Of a stretch of DNA of 42,041 bases, positions 31,579 to 41,627 are shown piece by piece (the stretch's first letter is position 1; each line of letters begins with the position of its first letter). Origin of the DNA: Candidatus Woesearchaeota archaeon (GTDB lineage Archaea > Nanobdellota > Nanobdellia > Woesearchaeales > BM511); NCBI GenBank assembly GCA_018221135.1, contig JAAOYB010000002.1, forward strand, positions 1-42,041, given 5' to 3'. The notes under the pieces are model-generated. The model did no database searches, was not told where the DNA came from, and worked only from the letters and a program-made list of their open reading frames with translations. The position numbers and the translations under genes are program-made.

Positions 31579-31959
31579 ATGAGTGTTTTTGAAAAAACAG
31601 CTGAAGTAATAAAAAAGGTAGTTGAAGAGACAGGGCTATCAGAAAATGACATTAGAATGGTAGTTTCTAGGGTTGTCCCAGGATTTCATAATCCTAGCAG
31701 AGAAAAAAAGGTTGAGTTAACAAAGACTGATGTAATGGTTTACGAGACTTTACTGAATAACGGTTTTAACCCTAACACTGTTTACCGCTGGTTCTTAGTA
31801 ACGAGTGCTCCAAAAGACGTTCAAAGAAAGATACGAAGCGGAGAGATAACAATAAGGCAAGCACTAAACATGCGAAACAAGCTCCGACAACAGTACGGCA
31901 CAGATGACGACGCGTTCATTGACGAAGTTATTTGGTACGTGGAGGAATACATACTATGA
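31579..31959 (+). CDS. Small helical (HTH-like?) protein coupled to the recombinase gene
   Basis: taggagg Shine-Dalgarno-like site before MSVFEKTAEV; its stop overlaps the next start (ATGA). Confidence 0.5.
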   Translation: MSVFEKTAEVIKKVVEETGLSENDIRMVVSRVVPGFHNPSREKKVELTKTDVMVYETLLNNGFNPNTVYRWFLVTSAPKDVQRKIRSGEITIRQALNMRNKLRQQYGTDDDAFIDEVIWYVEEYIL

Positions 31960-32381
31960 AACCTGACAAATCGTTCAAAAAGAAGAGGAAGCCAAACAAG
32001 GAGCGTTTACCTGGCGTTTTCTCAAAAGAACAACTAGTAACACTACTGCACAACACTAATGATTCTAGGATGGCAATGATAATCTTTGTCGGCGTATTCC
32101 AAGGCTTGAGAATAGGCGAGATACTAAGACTAAAATGGAAAGACGTGGACTTAGAATCAGGGATGATATGGGTAAGAGACGGGAAAAACGTTAAGCGACA
32201 CGAAACAGGATACGGCAAGGATAGATGCGTTCCTATAAACAAGAAATTCCGCGAGTTATGGATGAAATGGAAATACTACAACCAAGACGAAGAATTCATA
32301 GTTCCAAGCAGATTCAAACACAGAAAAAGACCCGAGACGAAACCCTCAAACAATAGTAGCATCAGCACTCTACCTAGCTAG
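31956..32381 (+). pseudogene. Truncated tyrosine recombinase/integrase (catalytic domain 5' part only)
   Basis: FSKEQLVTLL...GVFQGLRIGEILRLKWKDVDLESGMIWVRDGKNVKRHETGYGKDRCVPI carries the Arg-I box; the HxxR...Y boxes are absent. Confidence 0.75.
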
Positions 32382-32493
32382 CAAGCTAAACAAAGACGAT
32401 AGAACACAAAGAGACATAGCAAACACAACAGGCGTAATAGAAGTAACAATAAGAAAAAGAAGCAAAGAAATAGCGAAAGCAATATCTTTTTAA
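32341..32493 (+). pseudogene. TFB (archaeal TFIIB-like) C-terminal fragment, copy 1
   Basis: In-frame reading NPQTIVASALYLASKLNKDDRTQRDIANTTGVIEVTIRKRSKEIAKAISF* matches the TFB second cyclin repeat C-terminus. Confidence 0.8.
32437..32471 (+). repeat. Direct repeat copy 1 (35 bp exact), att-like core in the TFB 3' end
   Basis: atagaagtaacaataagaaaaagaagcaaagaaat, identical to 38016-38050. Confidence 0.95.
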
Positions 32494-32518: not shown

Positions 32519-35191
32519 ATGATAAAAAAGAGGTTGATTCTAATGGTATTTTTTGCTTTCTTATTAGCTTCTCTTAGCGTAAATGCTATAATATATGATA
32601 TGCATCCTGAAGTTTCATTTAGGTTTTTGCAAAGCTCACAAAACATTGAGGATAACAAGTTTAATGATCTTCAAGACATATATTTTTATTTATCAATATA
32701 TAACCAAGCAGAAAAAATGAATGAGATTGATAACAAAACCTTTTTTATTGAGACGATTCAAAACTTTCAAAATCCTGATGGGGGTTTTGGTGATTGGCTA
32801 AATGACCGCTCAAAAGCAGGTTCAACAAGGCTTGCATTAATGAGTTTAGAAATTCTTGATGCTTCCCCAGTTAATAAGACTAGTTTAAAAAACTTTTTGT
32901 ATGAGCTTCAAGTATTGAATTTGACATATGGTAATTATGGTTTTAAGTCTTCATTAAAGGATACCGATGCGGATTTATCAAGCACGTACGACGTTATTTA
33001 CTCATTAAACATACTCAATTTTGACATCCCAAATAAGCAAGGAGTTATTGCTTATTTAAAAGACCACCAGAATTTTGATGGTGGTTTTGGTCTTCAAACA
33101 AACAGAAAATCAGACATTTTTTGGACTTCTACACTTACACACACACGTAGAGGATTAGAGGCTTTGGATATCATAGGAGAATCTCCTGATTTCATGGATA
33201 AATCAATTAGTTTTATACATTCCTTGCAATCAGTTGATGGAGGGTATTCTAATGAGAAAGGTTCTAGTCCGAAAGTCACTTCGACTTATAACGCGATTTC
33301 ATCACTCCAAATACTTGGACAAAAACCAAATAATGTTGGTGGGATTGAAAACTTTATAAAAAACAATCAAGAACAAAACGGGGGGTTTGTTGAATACTCA
33401 TTAGATAACAAAGAAGGAATTCATACCGCTTTTTACGCTATGAGTGCCTTAAATAAAATAAATAAGAGATATGATGGGGGGAAAATTATTGGTTTTCTAG
33501 AAAGCTTTCTAAACAACAGGCTAGATGGAGGATTTCCAAATTATCCAGGTCTTGAATCAACATTGAAATCAACATTTAACTCAGTCTCATCTCTAAACCT
33601 TATAGGTAAAAAACCTTTAAACAGCACATTAACAATTAATTTTGTTGAAGGCTTCAAAAACAGTGACGGTGGATACGGACAAAACTCCGAATCTAATGTT
33701 GAATCCACATATAGATCTATTCTAGCTTTAAACGTTTTAGGCGCAACTATTACTGAGAAGGACAAAACAATCCAATACTTAAAAGATATGCAAAATAACG
33801 ATGGGGGTTTTGGCTTTGGAGAAAATTTAGTGTCAAGAGTTAGTTATACCTATCGAGCTATTAGAGCATTGTACTTATTAGGTTCAAAACCCCAAAACGT
33901 TGATGGAGCAATAAGTTTTTTGAAATCAGCCCAGAACATTGATGGAGGTTTCTCAAATAATATCGGGGACAAAACATCAGCTTTGGGCTCAACGTACAGA
34001 GCTATTAGAGCATTGCACCTATTAGGTTCTGTGCCAAAAGACAAAGTAAAGGCAAAAGATTTCATTATGGGCTGTAAAAACAGTGATGGGGGTTTTAAAA
34101 TATCGCCCATGAGTTTAGTCTCTCCGCAAAACCTGTCCAAATCCGTATACGCATACGACGCAGTTATAGCTTTGCATATCTTAGGTTATCCTTTAAATGA
34201 TGATTTAGATTCTTTAAATTTTATCAAAGAATTAAGAAATCCTGATTTAGGATTCGCGACAGCTGTTGATTTTACAAGTGATGCTTCCTCAACATTTACT
34301 TCGCTTTGGACTTATTACTACCTGGCAAGTTCTTTGAATGCGAAACCTGAACTAAAATTTTCAAAAGTAGAACACTTCTTAGATGAATCTGACACTTCTT
34401 ACTTTTTTAGTACGAGGTTCTATGATAATGACTCAATTTTTCCTGAATACGCTCACCTAATATTAGGTGGTGAGAGACATTTATTAAGTTTTGTTGATGA
34501 TAACCTAAAAGGAGAAAAGTACGTTGTTGATTTAAGCATATCATTAGGTGACTATAATTATTACTTTGAGGCGTCTGATGGAATAGAAATATATAAATCA
34601 GAACCTAAAACTTTTAGTGTGACTGAAAAAGGAGAAATCCCATTAATAATCGTAGAATCAGATTATAAAGAAGGAACCCCTGACACAATTTTTGATTTTA
34701 GAGCAGTTATCAAAAACATTGATTTAAACAGTATAAGAAGCGTTCACATAAAATTTAATGATAGAGCTTGGCATTCCATGAATGAAACCCAAAATTATTA
34801 CACCTATCAAAAAAGATTTAATCCTGGAGAATACACATATCAAGTAAAAGTTTATGATGGCCTAAATGTTGTGTCCTCAAAACAAAACCTGATTAAGGTG
34901 TACGGCCTTGATAATTCTAAGCCTGAATGGGATTTGTTTCTCAAAATAAAAAATTTGGTGTATTCTAAGTATAACACCACCATTTCTTATAACTATGTTA
35001 GTAAAGAAATTCTTGATGGCAATCTTTATTGGGGTGTAAGTCTTAGTGATAAAATCGTTTATGTTGATTACATCGGCGAAAATTTTTATGGAGAAAAACC
35101 TAATAATTCCTTAATGCCTTATTTATTGATTAGTATCGCGATATTAATTATCGGAATCACATTTTTTATATATAAGAAGCGACAAAAATAG
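32519..35191 (+). CDS. Secreted, membrane-anchored prenyltransferase/squalene-oxidase-type (alpha-toroid) repeat protein
   Basis: Signal peptide, about 10 QxxDGGF(G/S)-type repeats with STY.A...L..L motifs, C-terminal TM LMPYLLISIAILIIGITFFIYKKRQK. Confidence 0.88.
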   Translation: MIKKRLILMVFFAFLLASLSVNAIIYDMHPEVSFRFLQSSQNIEDNKFNDLQDIYFYLSIYNQAEKMNEIDNKTFFIETIQNFQNPDGGFGDWLNDRSKAGSTRLALMSLEILDASPVNKTSLKNFLYELQVLNLTYGNYGFKSSLKDTDADLSSTYDVIYSLNILNFDIPNKQGVIAYLKDHQNFDGGFGLQTNRKSDIFWTSTLTHTRRGLEALDIIGESPDFMDKSISFIHSLQSVDGGYSNEKGSSPKVTSTYNAISSLQILGQKPNNVGGIENFIKNNQEQNGGFVEYSLDNKEGIHTAFYAMSALNKINKRYDGGKIIGFLESFLNNRLDGGFPNYPGLESTLKSTFNSVSSLNLIGKKPLNSTLTINFVEGFKNSDGGYGQNSESNVESTYRSILALNVLGATITEKDKTIQYLKDMQNNDGGFGFGENLVSRVSYTYRAIRALYLLGSKPQNVDGAISFLKSAQNIDGGFSNNIGDKTSALGSTYRAIRALHLLGSVPKDKVKAKDFIMGCKNSDGGFKISPMSLVSPQNLSKSVYAYDAVIALHILGYPLNDDLDSLNFIKELRNPDLGFATAVDFTSDASSTFTSLWTYYYLASSLNAKPELKFSKVEHFLDESDTSYFFSTRFYDNDSIFPEYAHLILGGERHLLSFVDDNLKGEKYVVDLSISLGDYNYYFEASDGIEIYKSEPKTFSVTEKGEIPLIIVESDYKEGTPDTIFDFRAVIKNIDLNSIRSVHIKFNDRAWHSMNETQNYYTYQKRFNPGEYTYQVKVYDGLNVVSSKQNLIKVYGLDNSKPEWDLFLKIKNLVYSKYNTTISYNYVSKEILDGNLYWGVSLSDKIVYVDYIGENFYGEKPNNSLMPYLLISIAILIIGITFFIYKKRQK

Positions 35192-35194
35192 AAT

Positions 35195-36820
35195 ATGAGA
35201 TACGAACGCATAAAGAACCTTTTTCCTTTTTTCTTAATTTTATCCTTAATAATTTTTTGGGTGAGATACAATATTGATTTTATGAAGCCAATACTTTTGA
35301 GCTCAACACTCTTTTTTCAATTAATGATTTCTGTAACGCTAATCGCGGTGTTAAGAAACATAGTAGGAATAAGGTCTTTTGGCGTTTTTGGACCAACAAT
35401 CATAACTTTTGGAATACTTAAAACAGGATTATTTTTAGGTCTCACAATGTACCTAAACTTGTTTTTGATAGCTATGGCTTTGAGTTTTATTCTTTACAAG
35501 TACAATATTTCTTCTAGTTATAGAGTCGCAATAATTATTAGTTCGATAGTGGTGGCAATAACTTTTTTTGAAGTAGTAGGAGAATTGTATCACATAAAAA
35601 TTTTTGAGGCAATGATATTTTTTCCTGTGCTAATAACGTCTTGGTTAGCAGATAGGTTTGTTGTGCAAGTAAAAGAAGTTGATTGGGTTGAGACATCAAA
35701 AAAATTAGTTGGAACTATAATAATTATAATACTTGTTTATTTTGTGATAACTATAAGCCCCTTAATTAATTTTGTGAGTGTGAACCCAGAGACTTGGATT
35801 GGCTTGGTTATCCTGAATTTTTATCTCGCTAACAAGACAGGTTTTAGAGTAAGTGATTATCTAAGATTTAAAAACTTATTAGATAACAAAAAAGATATCT
35901 TAAGCTTAAATGTGAGAAACAGAGAGTACATAGCAAAGTATAACCCTCCCAACTTATACCCTAATTTATCTAAGGATAAGATGAAGCTTTCGTTTCACCA
36001 ACTAAACATACCAACACCAAAGACATATGCCATAATCGAGACAAAAAACGATATAGGCTTACTAGACAAAATCGTTTTTGAAAAAGAAAGCTTTGTGATT
36101 AAGCCAACAAAAGGTTTAGGAGGGGAGGGCATATTAGTAATTGATTCTAAAGGAAAAAATCCAAACAAAAAATTGTTTGTAACAGAAAAAGAAGTTTCTT
36201 TAGAGACTCTTAAAAGTCATATCAAACAAATATTAGAAGGCCAATACGCAAATAGCAATGAGGATAAAGCAATCATAGAAGAAAAAATAGAGGTAAGCCA
36301 ATATTTTCAAAAAAGTTTTGGCAAAGGCGTCTTTGATATAAGAGTAATAGTTTTTTATGGTTTTCCAGTTATGGCTATGATGAGAATCCCAACAAAAGAA
36401 TCAAAAGGATTTGGCAACATCCACAAAGGCGCAATAAGTGTGGGTTTAGACATAACAACTGGAAAAGCAATAAATCCTTTCTGGAAAGCTGGAGGAGGAG
36501 AGATAAAATATCACCCTGACACAAAAAAAGATTTGACAAAAATAAAGATACCTAACTGGGATGAAATCCTTAGACTATCCTGCTTGGCGCAAGGCGCAAG
36601 CAAACTAAACTATGCAGGCGTCGACGTCGTGCTTAGCAAGAAAGGGCCACTAGTCTTAGAAGTTAATAAAAGACCTGGTATAGAGATTCAAAACGCGAAT
36701 TTAGAAGGCTTATTAAAAAGATTAAGATACATAGAGAACAACTTAGGTTTATTAAGATTTGAAGACGTTGATAAAAGAGTTAGTCTCTCAAAAAAATTCA
36801 ATGAAAAAAAATGGGAATAA
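35195..36820 (+). CDS. 7TM membrane domain fused to ATP-grasp amidoligase (alpha-L-glutamate-ligase-like)
   Basis: N-terminal 220 aa with about 7 TM segments (7TM_transglut-like: GIRSFGVFGPTIITFGIL...); C-terminal ATP-grasp: SFVIKPTKGLGGEGILVI, VFDIRVIVFYGFPVMAMMRIPT, VDVVLSKKGPLVLEVNKRPGIEIQNAN. Confidence 0.85.
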   Translation: MRYERIKNLFPFFLILSLIIFWVRYNIDFMKPILLSSTLFFQLMISVTLIAVLRNIVGIRSFGVFGPTIITFGILKTGLFLGLTMYLNLFLIAMALSFILYKYNISSSYRVAIIISSIVVAITFFEVVGELYHIKIFEAMIFFPVLITSWLADRFVVQVKEVDWVETSKKLVGTIIIIILVYFVITISPLINFVSVNPETWIGLVILNFYLANKTGFRVSDYLRFKNLLDNKKDILSLNVRNREYIAKYNPPNLYPNLSKDKMKLSFHQLNIPTPKTYAIIETKNDIGLLDKIVFEKESFVIKPTKGLGGEGILVIDSKGKNPNKKLFVTEKEVSLETLKSHIKQILEGQYANSNEDKAIIEEKIEVSQYFQKSFGKGVFDIRVIVFYGFPVMAMMRIPTKESKGFGNIHKGAISVGLDITTGKAINPFWKAGGGEIKYHPDTKKDLTKIKIPNWDEILRLSCLAQGASKLNYAGVDVVLSKKGPLVLEVNKRPGIEIQNANLEGLLKRLRYIENNLGLLRFEDVDKRVSLSKKFNEKKWE

Positions 36821-37878
36821 AAAAAGCAATTACTACCCTCTTAATTTTGATTATAGTATCTAGCTTAGGCTATGTTTTTTTGACAAGTAAAAAAATTGAT
36901 ACGTACCAAGAAAGCAGTATAGGCTTAGTTGTTGAAGTAAACGTAAGAAATCTTGGGTCATACCCAGCGATTAATGTTCCATTAAGACTCGCTATACCAA
37001 CAAATCAAGAAAACCACCAATACGTTAAACAAATAATTTATTTAGAAGAACCTGAGAAAATCACAGAAGATTACTTAGGAAACAAATTCGTTCATTACAC
37101 AATAGAACAAATTAATGCGTTTTCATCAAAGAATCTAACAATAAACCTGTCGTTGCTGATGAAATCAACAGATTACAACATACAAAAAGATAAACTAGAA
37201 AACTATGATGACATAAGTGAAGAATTATATGAGAGCTCACTAATAAACTATAAAGAAGACGAGATACAATTATTAGCAAGACAAATCTCATCTAACTCAA
37301 GCAACATAGTAGACATCGCGTGGAACTCGTATGTTTGGGTAATACAAAACATTAATTACCAACAAATACCAGGGGAGTGGGATGCTCTAACAACACTAAG
37401 AAACAAGGAAGGTGGTTCTGCAGAACTAGGAAACTTATATGTCGCGTTATTAAAAGCAAACAACATTCCAGCGAGAAGAATATCTGGGTGGGGAAAAAAG
37501 TTTGTGGTAGGAGAAACATATCAACTATCCACCTTTGCTCACGGCTGGGCAGAGTTCTACCTCCCAGGGTACGGGTGGGTGCCAGTAGATCCTACCTGGG
37601 GAAAAAATCACAGATTTGACTACTTTGCAAAAACATATTCATCACACATAATCATGACTAAAGGAGCAGGGATCCACTTCATGAAAAGAGGGCCTTTCAC
37701 CAAGCCATATGGCGAAACAGAAATAAAAACGGACTACTCAATCACAATCAACGAATACTCAAACAAAAACCTAAGTCTAAAAAGAGCAATTCTACGAAAC
37801 ATAATTTACATAGCTCCAACTATGTTCTTACTATTTCTTCTATACAAAAAAATAAATCAAAGAAAAATACACGAATAA
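36811..37878 (+). CDS. Membrane-anchored transglutaminase-like protein, Cys-to-Ser at the predicted nucleophile
   Basis: N-terminal and C-terminal TM; NKEGGSAELGNLYVALLKANNIPARRISGWG...HGWAEFYLPGYGWVPVDPTWG. Confidence 0.85.
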   Translation: MGIKKAITTLLILIIVSSLGYVFLTSKKIDTYQESSIGLVVEVNVRNLGSYPAINVPLRLAIPTNQENHQYVKQIIYLEEPEKITEDYLGNKFVHYTIEQINAFSSKNLTINLSLLMKSTDYNIQKDKLENYDDISEELYESSLINYKEDEIQLLARQISSNSSNIVDIAWNSYVWVIQNINYQQIPGEWDALTTLRNKEGGSAELGNLYVALLKANNIPARRISGWGKKFVVGETYQLSTFAHGWAEFYLPGYGWVPVDPTWGKNHRFDYFAKTYSSHIIMTKGAGIHFMKRGPFTKPYGETEIKTDYSITINEYSNKNLSLKRAILRNIIYIAPTMFLLFLLYKKINQRKIHE

Positions 37879-38001: not shown

Positions 38002-38073
38002 ACACAACAGGAGTTATAGAAGTAACAATAAGAAAAAGAAGCAAAGAAATCGAAGAAGTAATAAAGATTTGAA
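38002..38073 (+). pseudogene. TFB C-terminal fragment, copy 2
   Basis: Reading HTTGVIEVTIRKRSKEIEEVIKI*, homologous to copy 1. Confidence 0.75.
38016..38050 (+). repeat. Direct repeat copy 2 (35 bp exact)
   Basis: Identical to 32437-32471; upstream 14 nt match with 2 synonymous differences. Confidence 0.95.
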
Positions 38074-38136: not shown

Positions 38137-38475
38137 TCACCTATAAACGACTCGAGCCAGTAATGGTGCAAGCCAATATTTTAGTAAGATGAAGAAGACG
38201 ACCAATACAATAAAAGATATAACTATCAGTTTCCAATTTTGTTTTAATCCTTTTACATTACAGCATTTTCTTTTAGTAAGATAAAGAAAAATGGCAATTC
38301 CAAAAAAGATTAATGCTAATGTTGTGAATAGCCAACTATATTTCCCGATAGTCAGGGCAGTTGATACACTTCCAAGTCCAAATAAAACTAGAATTACAGG
38401 TCCAAGACAGCAAAGTGAAGCAATTGCTCCTGCAAATCCTCCTGCAACTAATAATTTTTTATCTTCTTTGTTCAT
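38137..38475 (-). CDS. merT: MerT-like mercuric ion transport membrane protein
   Basis: GAIASLCCLGPVILVLFGLGS; second CC pair TKRKCCNV; three TMs; start trimmed to MNKEDKK. Confidence 0.8.
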   Translation of the reverse strand: MNKEDKKLLVAGGFAGAIASLCCLGPVILVLFGLGSVSTALTIGKYSWLFTTLALIFFGIAIFLYLTKRKCCNVKGLKQNWKLIVISFIVLVVFFILLKYWLAPLLARVVYR

Positions 38476-38479
38476 TCTT

Positions 38480-39892
38480 TTACTCAACGCAACAAGCCAT
38501 GTCATCAAGGTTTTGGTCAAAGCTTTGTGCTACTTTTTTGATTACTTCACTCATTGTTGGAAATACGTGTACTGTGTCTCTTATGTCATAGATTGTCATT
38601 TTGTTTTTTATTGCGTAGGTTGCTGTTGTTATTATGTCTGCTGCCATGTGTCCGACCATGTGAACTCCTAGTACAACTTTTGTTTCTGGGTCAATAACCA
38701 TTCGTATAACGCCTCTTGTTTCTTTTATCGCGGATGCTTTTTCAACATGATTCCAATGTATAGTCTTACATAGGCATACATTGTATCTTTTCATGTGTTC
38801 TTCTTCAGTTATCCCAACAACTGCGACTTCTGGCGAGGTGAATACTGCTCTTGGTATTTCTTCATAATTAATTGTTAATTTAGTATTTTCAAACATGTTT
38901 TTCACTGCGTGACTCCCCTGTTTTGCGGCGACTGTTTCAAGAGGCATTATGCCATTAACATCCCCGACAGCATAAATATGTGTTTGATTAGTTTGTAAAT
39001 AATCATTTACTTGAACAAATCCTTTTTTGTTTAGTTCAACACCTGATTTTTCAATGTCTATATTATCTGTGTGTGGTTGTAATCCTGTAGCTATGTATAA
39101 TCGTTCAGCAACTATAGTTTCTAACCCCTTACCATTTACATCAAATAACACCTCAACGCCTCCATCTTTATTCTTAACTTCTTTAAGGGAAGTTCCAGTG
39201 TAGATTTTGATGCCCTCTTCTTCAATATGTTTTTTAAGCTCGTTTGCTATGTCTTCATCAAATTTTGTGAGAACCCTATCAGACCGCTGGATTACTGTAA
39301 CTTCTGTTCCAAAATGGCGGAATAATTGTGACATTTCCATTGCCTCGGACCCACCGCCGAGAATAACTATTGATTTTGGTTGATAGTCTAGATTAAAGAC
39401 ATTGGCATTTGTAAGATAATCGACGTTTCGTATACCTTTTACAGGTGGAATGAGTGTGGAGGCTCCTGTTGCAATCAAAATATTATCTGCGACATAGTTT
39501 TGATTTCCTACCTTAACAGTATTTTCATCCACAAAGGATGCTCTTCCTTCCTTAAATTTAACATGTTCTTGTTTTTCAATAACTTTACTATAATTTTTTT
39601 CTTGAAATCCCTTAACCATTTCTCTTGTTTCTTTTAATGCTTTAACAAAGTCTGCATCCCCATTTAGATTTAAAGCTTTAAAAGTGCTTCTTGGAGGATA
39701 ATAAGCAGTTGCTCCTTGATGAAGCATTATTTTTGAAGGTACACAACCTACGTTAACACAAGTTCCACCAAGTGGGAGAATATTCTTATCATTTATCATC
39801 AAAGTTTTTTTCTTTAGTTTATTAGCAGTGTTACCAGCTGCAAAAGCGCCAGCACCCCCACCAATAATAATCAATTCATAATCGTTAACCAT
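38480..39892 (-). CDS. merA: Mercuric reductase (no NmerA domain)
   Basis: IIGGGAGAFAA, GGTCVNVGCVPSKIMLH, C-terminal vicinal cysteines DDMACCVE. Confidence 0.9.
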   Translation of the reverse strand: MVNDYELIIIGGGAGAFAAGNTANKLKKKTLMINDKNILPLGGTCVNVGCVPSKIMLHQGATAYYPPRSTFKALNLNGDADFVKALKETREMVKGFQEKNYSKVIEKQEHVKFKEGRASFVDENTVKVGNQNYVADNILIATGASTLIPPVKGIRNVDYLTNANVFNLDYQPKSIVILGGGSEAMEMSQLFRHFGTEVTVIQRSDRVLTKFDEDIANELKKHIEEEGIKIYTGTSLKEVKNKDGGVEVLFDVNGKGLETIVAERLYIATGLQPHTDNIDIEKSGVELNKKGFVQVNDYLQTNQTHIYAVGDVNGIMPLETVAAKQGSHAVKNMFENTKLTINYEEIPRAVFTSPEVAVVGITEEEHMKRYNVCLCKTIHWNHVEKASAIKETRGVIRMVIDPETKVVLGVHMVGHMAADIITTATYAIKNKMTIYDIRDTVHVFPTMSEVIKKVAQSFDQNLDDMACCVE

Positions 39893-39950
39893 GTAAATCA
39901 CCATGAATTAGAATGGTTATTAAATATATAAAATCTGGGTTTAACTAAAT

Positions 39951-40205
39951 TTAATTTTGACAGCAAGAACAATTTACATTAGCAGAATCATTTCCTTTTT
40001 CTTTTAAAAGTTCCATTATCTCAACAGAACAACATCTTTTTTTTGGGTGCGTTTCTTTACAATTATTACCTGTGCATGCCAAAGTCATGTCTTGTATATC
40101 TCTTAAAGTTTTAGCACCATTATCTATGGCATTAACTATTTTTAACTTGCCTATATTTTTACAATAACAAATAATTTCATCGTTTTTAGTATTTGGGGAT
40201 TCCAT
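39951..40205 (-). CDS. BFD-like [2Fe-2S]-binding / metallochaperone-like small protein
   Basis: EIICYCKNIGKLKIVNAIDNGAKTLRDIQDMTLACTGNNC...RCC, plus C-terminal NCSCCQN. Confidence 0.7.
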   Translation of the reverse strand: MESPNTKNDEIICYCKNIGKLKIVNAIDNGAKTLRDIQDMTLACTGNNCKETHPKKRCCSVEIMELLKEKGNDSANVNCSCCQN

Positions 40206-40255
40206 TTATGATTAATAATTGTAATACTTTAAAAAATTATTCTTTAGGCAAAAAA

Positions 40256-40264
40256 TTTATAAAT
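40256..40264 (+). promoter_or_regulatory. TATA-like box of arsR
   Basis: atttataaat about 27-33 nt upstream of ATG 40289, consistent with a leaderless transcript. Confidence 0.55.
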
Positions 40265-40270
40265 ATCAAT

Positions 40271-40290
40271 ATATCAATGAGTATTGATAT
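40271..40290. promoter_or_regulatory. Putative ArsR operator: ATATCAAT-GAGT-ATTGATAT
   Basis: Perfect 8-4-8 palindrome overlapping the arsR start, plus an additional direct half-site at 40263-40270. Confidence 0.7.
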
Positions 40291-40582
40291 GAATAAAGAC
40301 AAATCTATCAAGGTTTTCAAAGCACTTGGTGAAGAGACTAGATTTTTGATAGTCCAATCTTTACTAAAAGATGAATTATGTGCTTGTGAAATTCCTGATT
40401 TGATTGGGAGAACTCAAAGCAATACATCTATGCATCTTGCAAAGCTACATGATTTAGGTTTGATTAAATCTAGAAAAGATGGGAAAATGATTATTTATTC
40501 TATTAAGGATGAAGATGTTATAAAGTTATTAAAATTCTTAAAAATTAGTCCAATTAAAGTAGGTAAAAGGAGGAGTTGTTAA
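40289..40582 (+). CDS. arsR: ArsR/SmtB-family metalloregulator
   Basis: FKALGEETRFLIVQSLLKDELCACEIPDLIGRTQSNTSMHLAKLHDLGLIKSRKDGK; start trimmed to MNKDKS. Confidence 0.92.
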   Translation: MNKDKSIKVFKALGEETRFLIVQSLLKDELCACEIPDLIGRTQSNTSMHLAKLHDLGLIKSRKDGKMIIYSIKDEDVIKLLKFLKISPIKVGKRRSC

Positions 40583-40583
40583 A

Positions 40584-41627
40584 ATGGAATCAGAAAGAAA
40601 ACTTAATTTGTTTGATGGTTATTTATCGTTGTGGGTCGCTATTTGTATTATCGCAGGTACTGCTATAGGTTTCTTTTTCCCTGCTTTCTCACAATTCTTA
40701 GGTGGTATGGAAGTTGCAAATATTTCAGTTCCTATCGCGTTAGTGCTTCTTGCTATGATGTATCCTATCATGCTTAAAGTTAATTTTGAAGAAATTTTTA
40801 ATGTAAAGAAAAATTCAAAACCATTAGTCCTTACGGTTGTTGTTAATTGGCTTATCAAACCATTTAGTATGGCGTTTATTGCATGGTTATTTATGAGAGT
40901 ATTCTATTCCTCATTAATTCCTCAAAGTCTCCAATCCGAATACATTGCTGGGATGATATTACTAGGACTTGCTCCTTGTACTGCAATGGTATTGGTGTGG
41001 ACTCACCTTGCAAAAGCTAACATTAATTATGCACTAGTTCAAGTTTCAGTCAATGACCTTATAATCTTGGTATTATTTGCTCCCTTAGGAAAATTTTTAT
41101 TAGGTGTCACGACCGATTTTCCTGTGCCTTTTATGACAATATTTCTTTCAGTCTTATTTTATGTTGCTTTGCCACTTAGTTTAGCATTTATTACAAGGCA
41201 TTTGCTTGTTAAGAATAAAGGAAAATCTTGGTTTGAGAATAAGTTTATAAAAGAAATAGAATGGATAACGCCAGCAGGATTATTAGTAGCACTAGTTTTA
41301 ATATTCTTGTTTCAGGGGGATAAAATAATCCATTACCCTTTACACATTGTACTTATAGCAATTCCTTTAATATTTCAAACTTACCTTATATTTTACATAA
41401 GTTATTTTGGTGCAAAAAAACTAAAAATTCCATTTAAAGAAGCAGCACCATCAGCATTTATAGGGGCGAGTAATTTCTTCGAACTTTCTGTTGCTGTAGC
41501 ACTGATATTGTTTGGTATGAACTCCGGGGCGACATTAGCAACAGTTGTAGGTGTTTTAGTAGAAGTTCCTGTAATGCTTCATTTAGTTAAGATCATGAAA
41601 ATGAATAAAAACAAATTTAATTTTTGA
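40584..41627 (+). CDS. acr3: ACR3-family arsenite efflux transporter
   Basis: VPIALVLLAMMYPIMLKV, LGLAPCTAMVLVWTHLAKANINYALVQVSVND. Confidence 0.93.
   Translation: MESERKLNLFDGYLSLWVAICIIAGTAIGFFFPAFSQFLGGMEVANISVPIALVLLAMMYPIMLKVNFEEIFNVKKNSKPLVLTVVVNWLIKPFSMAFIAWLFMRVFYSSLIPQSLQSEYIAGMILLGLAPCTAMVLVWTHLAKANINYALVQVSVNDLIILVLFAPLGKFLLGVTTDFPVPFMTIFLSVLFYVALPLSLAFITRHLLVKNKGKSWFENKFIKEIEWITPAGLLVALVLIFLFQGDKIIHYPLHIVLIAIPLIFQTYLIFYISYFGAKKLKIPFKEAAPSAFIGASNFFELSVAVALILFGMNSGATLATVVGVLVEVPVMLHLVKIMKMNKNKFNF

Follow-up and report, generated by a model that had tools for sequence, protein, structure and literature searches.

Three co-oriented genes within the window, which is the whole 42,041-nt stretch of Candidatus Woesearchaeota archaeon DNA that was analyzed, are, with a probability of roughly 0.55, an archaeal and rearranged counterpart of the bacterial rloB-rloC gene pair, in which the product of the second gene (g2) would ligate glutamate and pass the chain outward to the products of the third and first genes (g3 and g1). 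The trio is a previously undescribed variant of the recently described Rlo system; the limited set of open-access literature searched contained no description of this layout. The features are listed below.

Features of the cassette and its upstream and downstream borders (positions in the window)
Feature	Position	Strand	Remarks
Tyrosine recombinase (integrase) fragment, context	31932..32381	+	PF00589 E 2e-12; PHROG integrase E 8e-19
62-nt direct repeat, upstream copy, in TFB C-terminal fragment	32423..32484	+	89% identical to 38002-38063
Gene 1 (g1), alpha-toroid repeat protein	32519..35191	+	890 aa, complete ORF
Gene 2 (g2), 7TM_transglut-ATP-grasp fusion	35195..36820	+	541 aa, complete ORF
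Gene 3 (g3), transglutaminase-like protein between two TM helices	36811..37878	+	355 aa, complete ORF
62-nt direct repeat, downstream copy (TFB C-terminal fragment)	38002..38063	+	translation TGVIEVTIRKRSKEI

The tight coupling proposed in the initial annotation was confirmed, with a 3-nt spacing between g1 and g2 (35192-35194) and a 10-nt overlap between g2 and g3 (ATGGGAATAA, 36811-36820). Hydropathy analysis also found the expected export or TM signals in all three proteins, and the earlier 7TM, ATP-grasp, toroid, and transglutaminase calls were matched by PF14402, PF14397, PF00432, and PF01841, respectively. All Pfam domain matches in the three proteins exceeded the curated cut-offs, including those for the N terminus and the ATP-grasp part of g2, on which the interpretation as a system had been made to depend.

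The g2 protein matched PF14402 (7TM_transglut) at residues 43 to 228 (E 7e-20; 72 bits against a cut-off of 25) and PF14397 (ATPgrasp_ST) at residues 241 to 514 (E 2e-64), and all of its hydrophobic helices lay within residues 5 to 200, in the N-terminal third. The closest NCBIfam family to the ligase was TIGR02291 (alpha-L-glutamate-ligase-like), which g2 matched with 254 bits, under the cut-off of 314, compared with 466 bits for one bacterial RloC. The ATP-grasp motifs were retained, namely, KPxxGxGGxGI, DIR, R397, N408, D477, and E489/N491, and the ligase is probably active because these ATP- and metal-binding motifs are in place. Judging from its relatives, its substrate is most likely glutamate or a similar compound.

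A scan of the genome collection with g2 recovered 79 bacterial loci, mostly from Gammaproteobacteria with a few from Verrucomicrobiota. Wherever both parts were readable, these loci carried a 7TM gene and a separate neighboring ATP-grasp gene, often 3 nt apart and in one frame; where the contig was long enough, the 7TM gene usually encoded about 500 aa, and the one bacterial representative scanned contained both PF14400 and PF14402. The g2 ATP-grasp domain was 30 to 43% identical to bacterial RloC in the best tblastn segment, and the g2 7TM domain aligned with RloB with an hhalign probability of 98% (E 2e-13), with the positions LR..VG, FFP..I..(E/D)R, and R.....RF in common. Furthermore, the junction between the 7TM and ATP-grasp parts of g2 coincided with the end of RloB and the start of RloC. 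Given this frequent close in-frame spacing of the neighboring rloB and rloC genes, their fusion would take little change. The initial annotation had pictured a rearranged amidoligase neighborhood, and the adjacent rloB-rloC pair provides its bacterial counterpart. Amidoligase neighborhoods with 7TM and inactive transglutaminase domains, the family combination named in the initial annotation, were reportedly described by Iyer et al. in 2009.

The rlo operon of Pseudomonas aeruginosa encodes RloA, RloB, and RloC and has a role in hypo-osmotic tolerance (PMC12239564). RloA is a secreted retropepsin-like protease that cleaves poly-glutamate of at least 8 residues, RloB consists of an inactive transglutaminase and a 7TM domain, and RloC is an ATP-grasp protein; the osmotic defect of the rloA mutant is rescued by the loss of rloB or rloC, and RloB was reported to be 96% proteobacterial (PMC12239564). 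Bacterial Rlo is a stress-tolerance system that probably makes poly-glutamate at the cell envelope. Of the known systems, rloABC of P. aeruginosa and other Gammaproteobacteria is the closest to the trio, which resembles it in its homologous 7TM domain and ATP-grasp ligase, its TG-like domain predicted to lie outside the membrane, and its tight operon. It differs in that the 7TM domain is joined to the ATP-grasp domain with a separate TG-like protein, whereas in rloABC the TG domain is joined to the 7TM domain and the ATP-grasp protein is separate; in addition, the archaeal trio has an added toroid protein, no RloA protease, and an archaeal host. An RloA-like gene was present at 73 of the 79 bacterial loci, and no RloA-like ORF was found at the three archaeal trios. 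The trio scored 45 bits against the RloB equivalog NF052267, for which the cut-off is 900, and it was classified as Rlo-like rather than as Rlo because the equivalog cut-offs of both RloB and TIGR02291 were not reached.

The genetics of the bacterial system bear on a different function, in which the 7TM and TG-like parts would form a sensor or transporter tuned by the ATP-grasp domain and no polymer would be exported. Such a function is compatible with the pleiotropic envelope phenotypes of rloB and rloC deletions in Pseudomonas and with a biochemical role of RloB that is not known (PMC12239564), but we consider it highly improbable, given that the bacterial partner RloA cuts polyglutamate specifically and that deletion of rloC rescues in the same way as deletion of rloB, which fits a product of both.

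The g3 protein matched the transglutaminase core PF01841 (E 2e-18) and did not match PF14400. Hydropathy placed one TM helix at each end (residues 1 to 29 and 326 to 345). Serine (Ser203) occupied the position of the catalytic cysteine, with His244 and Asp260 retained, so g3 does not have the Cys-His-Asp triad of active transglutaminases; this finding sharpens the earlier call of a transglutaminase-like protein. Ser, His, and Asp were found in all three g3 orthologues, in contrast to the Cys of archaeal paralogues, and eight aligned archaeal transglutaminase relatives had Cys, His, and Asp throughout. In the AF2 model (pLDDT 75), whose best PDB match was the transglutaminase-like protein 3isr (E 4.5e-16), Ser203 started the helix expected for the nucleophile. 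These features raise the possibility that g3 is an active enzyme with a Ser-His-Asp triad, a transferase or a hydrolase by which the product would be attached or trimmed at the surface, and that the trio thus covers both synthesis and attachment: the residue fixed at the nucleophile site in 3/3 orthologues is no random one, and His and Asp are kept. We regard a working g3 as unlikely, however, since only three sequences from a single order are at hand, the bacterial counterpart has been described as inactive (PMC12239564), and inactive transglutaminase domains have been proposed to be peptide binders (PMC3482391).

The g3 profile had matches in 279 of the 362 genomes of the order, and these transglutaminases were mostly 650 to 700 aa long. 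The source genome itself has a further transglutaminase gene (G000:C47:3320-3697), and others of the order were found at, e.g., L105 and L099. The hhalign comparison of g3 with archaeal transglutaminases gave 99.8% (E 6e-28), and that with RloB gave 12% (E 0.0024), while the alignment with the N-terminal half of RloB was collinear (TM, beta domain, TG, TM). Two origins of g3 are conceivable, namely, descent from a split RloB-type gene with later divergence or recruitment of a local transglutaminase that lost its Cys; the sequence comparisons lean toward recruitment because g3 is closer to common archaeal transglutaminases than to RloB.

The initial annotation described g1 as a prenyltransferase-type repeat protein, a label that held for the fold but not for the chemistry. 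Sequence homology to the alpha-toroid (prenyltransferase/squalene-cyclase) fold was strong, with a PF00432 match of E 1e-56 and with Rab-GGTase/FTase beta subunits among both the sequence and the fold matches in the PDB. The Foldseek probability of 1.00 for prenyltransferase beta subunits was obtained with a low-confidence AF2 model (pLDDT 61.5, pTM 0.43) and was read as evidence of the fold only. No Cys was common to the g1 orthologues, so the conserved Cys of the zinc-binding Asp-Cys-His site is absent, and the DxDD motif of class II terpene cyclases was absent from g1 and its orthologues. It is therefore unlikely that g1 carries out the chemistry of zinc prenyltransferases or class II cyclases, and it was excluded as an active prenyltransferase or cyclase. 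Hydropathy indicated a signal-like helix at residues 1 to 28 and a C-terminal TM helix at residues 862 to 888, with the toroid at about residues 30 to 600 and a beta-rich region at residues 640 to 800, which might, as a guess, be Ig-like, ahead of the C-terminal TM anchor. The g1 protein may act in binding or display. Membrane toroid proteins of the SCO2321 family (NF053823) share toroid repeats with g1, but the g1 score was far under the cut-off of that family (100 versus 300 bits).

The toroid also invites a reading as surface glycan or lipid modification, in which the ATP-grasp domain would amidate a sugar-linked acid, the toroid would bind a lipid or isoprenoid carrier, and no peptide would be made. 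Toroid folds of this kind bind isoprenoids in prenyltransferases and cyclases, and the best Pfam match of the g2 ligase, PF14397, is named for an association with sugar transfer; however, the closest NCBIfam family to the ligase is the alpha-L-glutamate-ligase-like TIGR02291, g1 has neither the conserved zinc Cys nor DxDD, and no glycosyltransferase was recognized beside the trio among the flanking genes that were scanned. Glycan or lipid modification thus appears quite improbable. Pseudomurein-type synthesis, which employs another set of ATP-grasp and Mur-ligase enzymes (PMC11915815), was also discarded.

In the preferred reading, that of an Rlo-like module handling glutamate, the g2 ATP-grasp domain would act on the cytosolic side, where it would spend ATP on linking amino acids, with glutamate as the most probable one, to each other as a chain or to an acceptor, and the fused 7TM domain would hold or deliver the ligase product at the membrane. 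Outside, beside the 7TM domain, g3 may bind the emerging peptide, performing in trans the function that RloB provides in cis through its N-terminal half. Anchored on the outer face, the g1 toroid would take the place of RloA and bind or display the product. By analogy with these relatives, the trio may build or attach a peptide-like modification. A bolder version, in which g2 is a single-chain synthase that exports a nonribosomal amino acid chain and the Ser-type g3 attaches this chain to the toroid g1, is a long shot; if true, such a ribosome-independent surface modification has not been described in archaea in the literature searched.

Recurrence of the trio was surveyed in 362 genomes of the order by profile searches with PF14402, g1, and g3. 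PF14402 had a match in 6 of these genomes, and the full trio was present, in identical gene order, in 3 of them: the source genome (a 1.05-Mb assembly of 62 contigs with the cassette on one contig), G139, and G462. The co-location that the initial annotation required thus extended to two further genomes. Strong orthologues of g3 (>740 bits) and g1 (>1400 bits) were limited to the three trio genomes, and g1 and g3 orthologues never occurred without g2 among the 362 genomes; the three genes are co-inherited. The G139 proteins were 66, 80, and 78% identical to the source g1, g2, and g3, respectively, and this closest other trio belongs to Candidatus Woesearchaeota archaeon DPANNHV_H2.bin.54, in agreement with the archaeal host proposed earlier. 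When the flanking genes of the three loci were compared, no match in common was found, and chance adjacency of g1, g2, and g3 was ruled out because the trio recurs with unrelated flanks. The three occurrences are not fully independent, since G139 and the source genome are of one family. In G462, g1 and g2 each contained a frameshift; that in g2 lay at an A7 run, which fits a sequencing error, with decay also possible. A Cas1 gene (L090:13267-14469) and a type I restriction gene (L090:14551-16545) neighbored the G462 trio.

Upstream of the cassette in the source genome, the integrase fragment continues into part of a TFB gene (TFB match at 32338-32478, E 8e-10). The intact TFB gene lies elsewhere in the genome and, as DNA, is too divergent to give a match. 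Directly downstream of the trio, at 38137-41627, were mercury and arsenic resistance genes, which encode MerT-like, MerA, and BFD-type proteins, a regulator of the ArsR type, and the arsenite transporter ACR3. The integrase remnant, the direct repeat, the resistance genes, and the patchy occurrence of the trio suggest that the cassette lies in an island, and the integrase-TFB fragment and the repeat look like what is left of an integrative element. Neither a TFB fragment nor an integrase was seen at the G139 and G462 trio loci. A role in anti-phage defense was set aside because PADLOC gave no match, and a virus-borne cassette was set aside because the patterns applied to viral contigs recovered no relative of g2 or g3.

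A second archaeal 7TM-ATP-grasp fusion was found on plasmid CP007061 of Halobacterium sp. DL1, as an unannotated gene for a 584-aa protein (L093:11839-13593) with 36% identity to g2 over 93% of g2. This plasmid gene is surrounded by transposases and has neither g1 nor g3 as a neighbor; the fusion thus extends beyond a single order. In the ATP-grasp tree, which bears on a bacterial origin of g2, long branches were joined with low support (80/29); a single and separate origins of the archaeal fusions were both kept in consideration for this reason.

For RloB and RloC, genetics exist and the biochemistry is not known. That the 7TM and ATP-grasp domains are found fused in nature argues that both parts work across the membrane as a single unit, and the separately encoded TG-like partner suggests that the TG piece can work in trans. 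The module extends from bacteria with peptidoglycan and outer membranes into archaea, which do not have bacterial peptidoglycan, so models of Rlo that rest on peptidoglycan only are limited.

The source genome also contains a RimB-like and RimK-like gene pair apart from the trio (G000:C3, L095:5447-6917). The RimB-type copy is short, without a signal, and away from the trio, as in most relatives. RimB was discarded as a hidden RloA partner and is not linked to the trio, because it is present in 43 of 61 relatives. The RimB-RimK ribosomal glutamylation pair shares RimK-type ATP-grasp chemistry with the trio but is cytosolic, without membrane or surface parts, and the g2 ATP-grasp domain is only a distant relative.

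Other PF14402 matches in the order were a 49-codon fragment at a contig end (G426), a sub-threshold match with an internal stop that was taken as chance (G163), and a match on a 3.7-kb contig of 60% GC with separate 7TM and ATP-grasp genes and bacterial-looking neighbors (L005, G275:C51), which is possibly contamination in an archaeal assembly. The 7TM gene of this contig had no TG part, and apparent superoxide dismutase and LysM-type hydrolase genes, named from the sequence, were also present on it.
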